Shown: positions 8,341 through 22,560 of the stretch, one piece after another
Numbering within the stretch: position 1 is the first letter of the stretch
Layout of the letters: each line of letters starts with the position of its first letter
NCBI GenBank assembly: GCA_021163645.1
Contig: JAGGTN010000017.1
Span: 1-39,428 of the forward strand
Origin: Microcaldota archaeon
GTDB taxonomy: Archaea > Micrarchaeota > Micrarchaeia > Anstonellales > JAGGTN01
Direction of reading: 5' to 3'
DNA: 39,428 nt
Program-made: the position numbers and the translations under genes
The notes under the pieces: generated by a model
Seen by the model: the letters and a program-made list of their open reading frames with translations, nothing else
The model's database searches: none
Told to the model about the DNA's origin: nothing

Positions 8341-8450
8341 GATTTTACTTGAAATATTTTGCCTGAATTTTTACTTAATTTTTACCTGAATTTTTACTTA
8401 ATTTTTTTACTTGGAACTTTTTACTTAACTTTTACTTGAAACTGTCCAAA
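8341..8450. repeat. Imperfect tandem repeat, TTTTTACTT(A/G)A unit
   Basis: Between the DUF2207 gene and the HAD-like pair, about seven variants of a 10-17 nt unit (TTTTTACTTAA, TTTTTACCTGAA, TTTTTACTTGGAA, TTTTACTTGAAA) follow each other. This part of the spacer has no ORF. The rest of the 290-nt gap holds unique sequence and the palindrome at 8551. Confidence 0.65.
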
Positions 8451-8550: not shown

Positions 8551-8569
8551 ATACTATTTTAAATAGTAT
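8551..8569. promoter_or_regulatory. Perfect 9+9 palindrome over likely TATA element
   Basis: ATACTATTT-T-AAATAGTAT is a perfect inverted repeat with a 1-nt centre. It ends 27 nt upstream of the first ATG of the HAD-like gene at 8597. Its centre TTTTAAAT could serve as the TATA box of a leaderless transcript, so a dimeric repressor bound here would block TBP. The operator role is inferred. Confidence 0.5.
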
Positions 8570-8596
8570 CGCTACCTAGTAACAATTTTATATTTT

Positions 8597-9214
8597 ATGG
8601 TTCAAATTATATTTATGACAACGTTCATGTTTGAGATGATGGGGGCTGTTTATAATAAATCTGACCTTTTCGGTATAACCAAGGAAACGTTAAAAGAATG
8701 CAGACATAACATTGATGATAAACTCCTGAAAAAGACGTATGACGAATTCGTAAATGGGAACATTGATGAAAACTATTTTTGGAAAAAATTAAGTATGGAC
8801 AATTATATGATGCCACGTAAATTGATTTTAGAAAAGATTGAAAACTCATTGAATAATGATTTTCTTGAAGTACTCCCTTCTCTTTCAGGAAATCGAATAG
8901 TAATTAAAGGAGATATTCCTCAAGAATGGGGAGAACATATCCTAGAATCTACAACAGTATCCTCGATGATACAATCGTATGTATTCTCAGGTAGTCTTGG
9001 CAAGAATGTTAATGATTCTGAATTCATCAAAACATTAATAAACAAGCTAGGTAGTTTGATATGCATCGAAACAAACAAAGAAAATTATATAAAATTAAGA
9101 GATGCAGGGGCAGATGTGATATTACTAGTAAGGGAACCAACTACGATTGATGGGTTAAATCCAGAGATAACAATAAGCAACCTTAGGCAGATAGAAGAGA
9201 TTTTTAGGACATAG
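8597..9214 (+). CDS. HAD-like fold protein, catalytic motif degenerate (paralogue 1)
   Basis: This 205-aa protein shows the skeleton of a small HAD-superfamily phosphatase. A helical cap segment has TYDEFVNGNIDENYFWKKL, like the FWRxL cap element of HAD subfamily I. The middle motif VFSGSLGKNVNDSEFIKTLI resembles the motif III region (SxxxGxxKPDxxIF), and the end NYIKLRDAGADVILL resembles motif IV's NxxxAxxAGxxxI. The expected nucleophile motif DxDGT reads FEMMGAVYN, with no Asp pair, and the motif IV acidic pair is ICIETNKEN. It is therefore probably not a phosphatase; a binding or regulatory role is an inference. The neighbour at 9253 is a diverged paralogue. A palindrome lies just upstream, and the start is probably leaderless. 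Confidence 0.6.
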   Translation: MVQIIFMTTFMFEMMGAVYNKSDLFGITKETLKECRHNIDDKLLKKTYDEFVNGNIDENYFWKKLSMDNYMMPRKLILEKIENSLNNDFLEVLPSLSGNRIVIKGDIPQEWGEHILESTTVSSMIQSYVFSGSLGKNVNDSEFIKTLINKLGSLICIETNKENYIKLRDAGADVILLVREPTTIDGLNPEITISNLRQIEEIFRT

Positions 9215-9252
9215 GAGATAAATAGGTTATTAATACGAAAGCGGGTGGAAAT

Positions 9253-9918
9253 ATGGAAGATGAGGAGAATGATAAGGATAAGCAAGAAACCATAGATAAA
9301 TATGAATATGATTCTGTAATCATCATGAATCTTGAGGTCATTAACAAACAAGAACCATCAAAAATGATAAAACAAATACTGACTAATTTTGGAGAGATAA
9401 TTAACTTTGACATGACAGATATATATAAAGATTTTATCAAGGGCAGGATAAATGAAACACGATTCTGGAGGCTGTTGGATATTAAGAATTATTCCAATAT
9501 TAAGGAATTCATAATAAGAGAACTTGATGACCAATTAGAAAATAAATATAATATATTAACTGAATTGACGCGAATTTTTAAGATAAACATAATCCATGAA
9601 TTTCCAAAAGAATGGTTTGATGAGATATCAGAAAAAAATAATATTACTGGTATATCATTAAAGGATATCAACGAAGAGCCTTACTCAAAAGGATTCTATA
9701 ATCAAATCATAGAAAATATAAGAACCAATACAGGAATAGAAGATAAGATATTATTAATAGACAATGATATCTCGCGTATGAAAAACACTGATAGTCTTAA
9801 AATAAAAACATGTTTGATCCTCAACAAGCCGCTCGTAAAACCTGATTGGTATCCAAACATACTGGCCCCTGATTTTTCAAGCCTTACCAATATTAAAAAA
9901 GCCATTCAATATTTTTAA
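9253..9918 (+). CDS. HAD-like fold protein, catalytic motif degenerate (paralogue 2)
   Basis: This 221-aa protein is arranged like its upstream neighbour. After an acidic lead (MEDEENDKDKQ), the strand DSVIIMNLEVINKQE takes the place of the HAD nucleophile strand but lacks DxD. The cap segment IYKDFIKGRINETRFWRLL aligns with YDEFVNGNIDENYFWKKL of the first protein. The end has ILLIDNDISRMKNTDSLKIK, close to the HAD motif IV form DDxxxNxxxAxxxG, with its acidic residues partly kept. Start ATG at 9253 follows GGGTGGAAAT. The two genes are 38 nt apart and probably co-transcribed. No specific family is recognised, and the pair may act as a heterodimer. Confidence 0.6.
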   Translation: MEDEENDKDKQETIDKYEYDSVIIMNLEVINKQEPSKMIKQILTNFGEIINFDMTDIYKDFIKGRINETRFWRLLDIKNYSNIKEFIIRELDDQLENKYNILTELTRIFKINIIHEFPKEWFDEISEKNNITGISLKDINEEPYSKGFYNQIIENIRTNTGIEDKILLIDNDISRMKNTDSLKIKTCLILNKPLVKPDWYPNILAPDFSSLTNIKKAIQYF

Positions 9919-10047: not shown

Positions 10048-11127
10048 ATGGTATTAGTATATAAGATAAAAAAAATGAATGCTCAAGAATTGAAACACAT
10101 CATCCCAATAGATTACTCATATAAACCAGAAACAAATAAAAATTATGTTTATTTTGCAGTAGATAAAAAACAAGATTACATAAAAATATTAAAAGACATT
10201 AAAAAGAAGATGCAAATACAACAAAAAGATGTCATTACCCTTGCAGATAAAAAACTTAAAAAAATAGAAAAGAAGCCACATAGCATAAAGGAGATACTTA
10301 AAAACAAAGGTATCAATATAGACATTTCATCTTTTGAGGTAATAAAAGACATAGCAATAATTGATATTCCGAAAAAGCTCAATATTAAAAAGGAAACAAT
10401 GAATGAAATTGCTGATGCAATCATGAGAGTTCACCCTCATGTTAAAACTGTCTTACGCAAGGCAAGTGCGATGGAAGGAGAATGGAGGGTAAGAAGATTA
10501 GAACTGATAAAAGGAGAGGAGAAAACAATTACAACATACATTGAAAACGGATGTAGATTTAAGGTAGACCTTTCAAAGATGTATTATTCAACACGGCTAT
10601 CTCCAGAACGCATGCGGATTGCCAAACTTGTTCAAGAATCCAAAAAGAACGAACAGATACTAATTCCATTTGCGGGATATGGGCCTTTTGCCATAACGAT
10701 AGCTAAATACAACCCATCATGTAGAATTGCTGGAATTGAAATAAATCCATATGCTGTAGAATATTTTAAAGAAAACATCAGACTAAACAAACTTGAAAAT
10801 ATCGATGTATACGAAGGTGATGCGCGGGCAATAGTTAAAACCAAATTTAATAGTTGGGCGGACAGGATAATCATGCCTCTCCCAAAAAATACAATTGATT
10901 ACCTATCGGATATAATCATAGGAGCAAAGGGTGAATCTATCATTCACGTATACGCATTCTCAGATAGAGAGAGGATGTTTAAAGACGTTGAAGAAAAACT
11001 AGATAAAAAGATAGGAAAGGAATATGATTATCAAATCATCAATAAAAGAATAGTAAGACCTTATTCTCCATTTGTATCTCAAGTTGTTATGGATATTAAA
11101 ATAAGACGAAAAAATAGGCAACTTTAA
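10048..11127 (+). CDS. trm5: tRNA (guanine37-N1)-methyltransferase Trm5
   Basis: This 359-aa protein is a Trm5 enzyme, which uses S-adenosylmethionine to make m1G37 next to the anticodon and so prevents frameshifting. The N-terminal region (about 1-130) is the divergent D1-type domain. The linker has AIMRVHPHVKTVLRKASAMEGEWRVR. The Rossmann domain begins FKVDLSKMYYSTRLSPERMR, followed by the SAM-binding FAGYGPFAI, then AGIEINPYAVEYFKENI, and the catalytic-loop region ADRIIMPLPKNT (usually NLP in the family). Both intron-containing tRNAs of this window carry a purine at 37, and tRNA-Arg(UCG) has G37, a possible substrate. The upstream spacer contains A-rich TTTACAAA repeats. Confidence 0.9.
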   Translation: MVLVYKIKKMNAQELKHIIPIDYSYKPETNKNYVYFAVDKKQDYIKILKDIKKKMQIQQKDVITLADKKLKKIEKKPHSIKEILKNKGINIDISSFEVIKDIAIIDIPKKLNIKKETMNEIADAIMRVHPHVKTVLRKASAMEGEWRVRRLELIKGEEKTITTYIENGCRFKVDLSKMYYSTRLSPERMRIAKLVQESKKNEQILIPFAGYGPFAITIAKYNPSCRIAGIEINPYAVEYFKENIRLNKLENIDVYEGDARAIVKTKFNSWADRIIMPLPKNTIDYLSDIIIGAKGESIIHVYAFSDRERMFKDVEEKLDKKIGKEYDYQIINKRIVRPYSPFVSQVVMDIKIRRKNRQL

Positions 11128-11362: not shown

Positions 11363-11923
11363 ATGAATAAGGGATTGAAAAGCATATTTACTAAAAAGGA
11401 TATGGAATTGCCTTTTAACAAGAGCAGAAAAAGAAGGTTCAATGACTTTATTAAAATACCTCTTCTGATAGGCATGCTAGGTTATACAATAATGACGTCT
11501 ACTAACTGCGCTGGAAAACTTGAATATAGAAGGAATGATATTATTGAAAAAAAGAAGGTTGGATACATCAAAAATAATGATTTCAGAATGTTCTTCAAAA
11601 ATTTCCTTAAGCTAGCACGCAAACAACATCATGCTAAAAAGGTATGGGTACTGATTCAAGATAAAACTGACCTTAATAAATTAAGAACAGATCTCTATTA
11701 CGCACTTAAAAAAGAAAACTACAAAATCACAGATTATGATGAGATTGATGGCATGTCAATATTAAACATAAAAAGAGAAGGAAAAGAGTACAGTTTAAAG
11801 ATAATATTTGGTAAATCATATAAATACATTTACTATGGTAGTATTGGGCAAGGATCAATAATATCACAACCAATAATTGGGTATAAATGTGCAGTGATCA
11901 AAGCTGAAATAAACGAAAAATAA
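11363..11923 (+). CDS. Hypothetical protein with one membrane anchor
   Basis: This 186-aa protein is of unrecognised family. The first 30 residues are strongly basic (KSRKRRFNDFIK). A hydrophobic stretch follows (about 31-48, IPLLIGMLGYTIMTSTNC) that ends in a cysteine, reminiscent of but not matching a lipobox, because Asn precedes Cys. The rest (about 60-186) is a soluble alpha/beta-looking domain rich in Lys and Tyr. ATG 11363 follows GGTGATTTT, a clear ribosome binding site. It converges with mutS, whose stop lies only 9 nt away. Function unknown. Confidence 0.7.
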   Translation: MNKGLKSIFTKKDMELPFNKSRKRRFNDFIKIPLLIGMLGYTIMTSTNCAGKLEYRRNDIIEKKKVGYIKNNDFRMFFKNFLKLARKQHHAKKVWVLIQDKTDLNKLRTDLYYALKKENYKITDYDEIDGMSILNIKREGKEYSLKIIFGKSYKYIYYGSIGQGSIISQPIIGYKCAVIKAEINEK

Positions 11924-22407: not shown

Positions 22408-22560
22408 TTCCTCTTATTCACCACTCTTAATATCATCAGATTAACTTCTTTTGCTCTTTTTACGTTTCTTGTCATTTCTCGTTACATTTCTTCTTGATCC
22501 TTTTTCCGTTCCTCCTTTTTAGTGCAGGTTTTTCTTTCTTGTAAGAAAGAAAAATGTGCT
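22408..22560 (-). other. Anticodon-loop intron of tRNA-Arg (153 nt)
   Basis: The intron starts AGCACATTTTTC and contains a 12-bp hairpin TTTTTCTTTCTT/AAGAAAGAAAAA, directly followed by CCTGCACTAAAAAGG. The core AAAAACCTGCRCTAAAAA is shared with both copies in tRNA-Thr. The remaining ~100 nt is A-rich. No ORF for a homing enzyme fits in it. Confidence 0.85.

Follow-up and report, generated by a model that had tools for sequence, protein, structure and literature searches.

Two adjacent genes in a small archaeal genome encode proteins of the HAD superfamily that carry a C1-like helical cap, and both proteins lack the nucleophile aspartate of the active enzymes. The genes, here called A and B, lie in a window of 39,428 nucleotides, i.e., the whole stretch of DNA that was analysed. 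The same tandem is found in two further genomes, G001 and G008, each from a different family of the order; A is degenerate in both of them, and B is an intact enzyme-like protein of HAD subfamily IA. Our preferred reading, which we hold tentatively and put a little below an even chance, is that A is a non-catalytic partner kept beside B after an ancient tandem duplication, most likely as one half of a heterodimer formed through the cap helices, and that in the window both members are probably inactive.

The tandem genes and their HAD fold

The window makes up contig C35 of a genome of 895 kb (88.6% complete), and its proteasome, SBDS, exosome and TRM5-type methyltransferase genes are archaeal. 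The following features are referred to throughout:

8551..8569, no strand: exact 9+1+9 inverted repeat, ATACTATTT-T-AAATAGTAT, upstream of gene A
8597..9214, + strand: gene A (P0001), encoding a 205-aa pseudo-enzyme of the HAD type that has a C1-like helical cap
8810..8848, + strand: stretch of the cap conserved specifically in A, residues 72-84 (MPRKLILEKIENS); the three A proteins agree at 10 of its 13 residues
9253..9918, + strand: gene B (P0002), encoding a 221-aa paralogue of the A protein that corresponds to the intact HAD-IA proteins in G001 and G008
10048..11127, + strand: TRM5/TYW2-type tRNA methyltransferase, downstream neighbour of the A-B pair

Gene B is preceded by a Shine-Dalgarno-like GGGTGG. 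P0001 and P0002 share 27% identity over 123 residues (E 1e-9), and the profile of A matches that of B with a probability of 99.7 in a profile-profile comparison; judged by this similarity, A and B are paralogues. Another, ordinary HAD is encoded elsewhere in the same genome (C21).

When P0001 and P0002 were each searched alone against Pfam, NCBIfam, PHROGs and PADLOC no family was found, and weak matches to BSD, DUF3873 and others fell below the cut-off and were disregarded. As the two proteins match no HAD model by themselves, their membership of the superfamily is decided by their relatives. The B proteins of G001 and G008 match PF00702 and PF13419 above the curated Pfam cut-offs, together with many NCBIfam HAD models. 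Compared using hhalign with an alignment of 11 intact HADs from which A and B proteins were absent, the A family scored 98.9 (E 1.4e-17), P0001 alone 98.1 and P0002 alone 87.7, in agreement with the initial annotation, which had placed both proteins among the HADs. A profile of all ten proteins searched against the PDB retrieved haloacid dehalogenases, YihX, PH0459 and related phosphatases.

Structure prediction using AlphaFold2, from alignments only four sequences deep that drew on the window and one related locus, gave a clearer answer for A than for B. The P0001 model (pLDDT 66) matched 93 PDB chains at E < 0.001 in Foldseek, those listed being HAD proteins, while the P0002 model was poor (pLDDT 62) and its structural matches were weak, with HAD proteins first and a best E of 0.01. 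Both models are predicted best in the cap helices, which follow the first core strand and precede motif II (residues 24-83 of P0001 and 35-96 of P0002). The two segments that had been picked out earlier as cap sequence, FVNGNIDENYFWKKL and FIKGRINETRFWRLL, do fall within it and contain the cap columns with the strongest conservation (F, G, E, F).

Catalytic motifs and conservation of the pair

At motif I the intact relatives from these genomes have FDLMGV, FDLSEV, FDFGGV or similar, i.e., they carry the nucleophile aspartate without a second aspartate. The initial annotation had described both proteins of the window as lacking a DxD nucleophile; the motif I aspartate is indeed absent from both, but DxD is too strict a pattern, as intact relatives of the FDLxG and FDFGG type also lack its second residue. 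In the A proteins motif I reads FEMMG (window), FELLG (G001) and FNLEG (G008), which puts glutamate (Glu13 of P0001), glutamate and asparagine, respectively, at the nucleophile position. In the B proteins it reads FDLAGVL in G001 and FDFGGVI in G008, with the aspartate present, and MNLE within IIMNLEVIN in the window, where the alignment needs a 1- or 2-residue gap; that aspartate is missing is more certain than that asparagine has replaced it. The acidic DD pair of motif IV is also missing from P0001 (ET, Glu158-Thr159) and P0002 (DN); the other two A proteins read EP and DQ at this position, and both other B proteins read DD. Going by these residues, A and B of the window are probably both inactive.

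What is left of the active site in A could in principle support a different chemistry, with Glu13 (Asn in G008) in place of the aspartate nucleophile and the remaining acidic residues and a lysine binding a metal ion and the substrate. Two of the three A proteins have glutamate at acidic positions of motifs I and IV and a lysine near motif III (Lys136 of P0001), and because acidic residues are kept in two genomes and this lysine in two, A may bind a ligand or a metal. Catalysis by such a site is nevertheless very unlikely, given that the A protein of G008 has asparagine at motif I and no lysine near motif III, that the Ser/Thr of motif II is not kept in A, and that characterised HAD hydrolases use an aspartyl intermediate.

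The A-B tandem is present in the same order in three families of the order, although with one genome per family these are three examples only. A and B are 38 nt apart in the window, 55 nt apart in G001 and overlap by 4 nt in G008. The A proteins form a supported clade (97/92) with pairwise identities of 38, 30 and 33%, compared with 20, 22 and 28% for the B proteins. Since A is degenerate in all three families and its identities are higher than those of B, it appears to be an old, maintained pseudo-enzyme, and most likely its nucleophile was lost before the three families split and A has been kept since. For B, the missing nucleophile is a derived state, observed in the window only. It had been proposed earlier that relatives with an intact nucleophile would mark the window's copy as simply decayed; such relatives exist for B, in G001 and G008, but not among the A proteins of the three genomes, for which the shared degeneracy and the higher identities argue against simple decay.

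The best conserved stretch of A, residues 72-84 with the pattern MPRKLxLEKxExS, is a candidate interaction surface. This stretch was chosen after looking at the alignment, and for the A cap as a whole the enrichment of invariant columns is weak and falls short of significance (odds ratio 2.0, p 0.067).

Full-length A was found in three of the 301 genomes of the phylum, i.e., those of the window, G001 and G008. The other matches inspected in the phylum are single HADs, mostly with intact motifs. A search of the genome contigs with the A alignment returned the G008 locus only, the same search with P0002 returned no match, and there was no match in viral contigs. One HAD homologue of G008 (L062, G008:C2:105779-106258) is broken by one TGA and is possibly a decayed copy.

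This narrow distribution, together with the small size of the genomes, would fit a scenario in which both HADs were drifting out of use in reduced genomes under relaxed selection, A first and B later in the lineage of the window. P0002 also has the longest end branch (2.28 changes per column), which may reflect a new role or relaxed selection, and it has lost residues of motifs I and IV that the other B proteins keep. We consider this explanation improbable, as the reading frames of A are uninterrupted, A has stayed more similar across three families than intact B while being degenerate in each, and an invariant cap segment has been kept. The P0002 frame runs through 221 codons without a stop in DNA of 34% GC, its long branch notwithstanding, though the loss of its nucleophile could itself be recent.

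Upstream DNA and flanking genes

The initial annotation had regarded the palindrome before gene A as a perfect 9+9 operator candidate. The repeat is exact, but its role as an operator was rejected. Inverted repeats with arms of at least 9 and a spacer of 0-4 occur three times in the window, where sequence simulated with a Markov model has 1.8 on average. The genome holds no other copy of the palindrome at fewer than 2 mismatches, a control search with the reversed pattern gives more matches than the palindrome itself, and no comparable inverted repeat lies upstream of A in G001 or G008. The centre of the palindrome, TTTAAATA, is located ~35 nt before the first ATG and resembles an archaeal TATA box, with which the palindrome would then overlap. 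We conclude that the palindrome is at chance level for AT-rich DNA and offers no evidence of an operator.

Two other repeats were recorded. An array of degenerate direct repeats of 11-12 nt (TTTTTACTTAA / TTTTTACTTGAA) occupies positions 8343-8443, upstream of the A-B pair in a divergent intergenic region, and a 12+2+12 inverted repeat at 22529-22554, TTTTTCTTTCTTGTAAGAAAGAAAAA, is the longest found in the window.

The genes around the pair vary. The TRM5/TYW2-type methyltransferase that follows the pair in the window does not adjoin the pairs of G001 or G008 and is probably outside the A-B unit. In G001, genes for Ku and an ATP-dependent DNA ligase lie directly 3' of the pair on the same strand (L028 1966-3736), and an AspRS-like N-terminus, read by eye and without a Pfam match, lies upstream of A. 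The pair of G008 is followed by genes for an unassigned 379-aa protein and a diphthamide-synthase fusion, with SerRS divergent from the pair. As the neighbours differ among the three genomes, no pathway is indicated, and a common pathway from gene context was rejected.

Some features of these surroundings are worth recording in their own right. The Ku and ligase genes beside the G001 pair make up a minimal NHEJ-like gene pair. Genes related to tRNA, e.g., those for SerRS, LeuRS with Trm56, a tRNA_bind protein and the TRM5-type methyltransferase, stand beside several of these HAD genes (L029, L030, L032 and window 10048-11127). A link between the two was dropped, as several other HADs of the set have no such neighbour and tRNA-related genes are common in small genomes, and the proximity is possibly due to chance. 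Further downstream in the window, positions 11363-11923 encode a 186-aa protein with no Pfam or NCBIfam family match and no relative in G001 or G008.

The differing flanking genes also bear on whether A and B work together at all. A could be a free-standing HAD domain that binds a ligand or a protein, and B, a phosphatase in most lineages, could be adjacent to it merely through tandem duplication. The poor conservation of B and the changing neighbours fit such separate action, and an A-B interaction is something we infer. However, the adjacency and order of A and B have been kept across three families while other neighbours changed, and the two genes overlap by 4 nt in G008; on balance we regard separate action as somewhat unlikely.

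Proposed role of the pair and related systems

The preferred reading, in which A is the non-catalytic partner of B, draws on gene adjacency and conservation. It would begin with an ancient tandem duplication of a C1-capped HAD gene (subfamily IA, YihX/dehalogenase-like) in one Micrarchaeota lineage, giving rise to A and B. Because the B proteins are not resolved as one clade in the tree, the case for a single duplication before the three families is made from A and the tandem order, not from B. A would then have lost its nucleophile before the families diverged and been retained as a non-catalytic partner, pairing with B as a heterodimer through the cap helices and the MPRKLxLEKxExS segment; some C1-cap HADs, e.g., haloacid dehalogenases, dimerise through the cap. 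In this arrangement A might influence how stable or active B is, or how substrates reach it. The window's lineage would later have lost the nucleophile of B as well, probably leaving the pair there as a binding or regulatory unit only.

The initial annotation had suggested a regulated sensor or scaffold pair. A sensor or scaffold is possible for the window, while a dead partner of an enzyme suits the relatives better, where B is intact. A more far-reaching version, that A represents an unnamed archaeal family of HAD pseudo-phosphatases that are obligate partners of the adjacent HAD enzyme, and that with both subunits non-catalytic in one lineage the pair has become a pure sensor or scaffold, seems to us unlikely.

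Our literature search turned up no description of a HAD pseudo-enzyme of the A type. The closest known proteins are the HAD subfamily IA hydrolases with a C1 cap (PF00702/PF13419), which include the YihX glucose-1-phosphatase (NF006991), L-2-haloacid dehalogenase and the soluble epoxide hydrolase N-terminal-like phosphatase (TIGR02247). A and B resemble them in having a core with a helical cap inserted after the first strand and in the positions and order of the motifs, and the B proteins of G001 and G008 also keep the motif I aspartate and the DD of motif IV. Unlike these hydrolases, A has no nucleophile aspartate and matches no Pfam or NCBIfam HAD model, and the B protein of the window has lost the nucleophile as well.

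HAD-fold pseudo-enzymes are known from eukaryotes, e.g., yeast Tps3/Tsl1, with a degenerate trehalose-phosphatase domain, and Tim50, with an FCP1-like domain. In these the HAD fold has probably been retained for a non-catalytic role beside active relatives or within a machine, and A may be a parallel case, although A and B come from other HAD subfamilies and differ from the eukaryotic proteins in domain architecture and lineage. A further parallel is with enzyme/pseudo-enzyme paralogue pairs, since in G001 and G008 an intact and a dead paralogue are encoded side by side; the window departs from this pattern in that both proteins lack the nucleophile. A pseudo-enzyme kept beside an active paralogue offers a view of regulation evolving from catalysis. 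Sub-megabase archaeal genomes are expected to shed dispensable genes, and a dead HAD maintained in them would be a compact test case, in which two stages are available among relatives: a dead and a live paralogue in G001 and G008, and two dead ones in the window.
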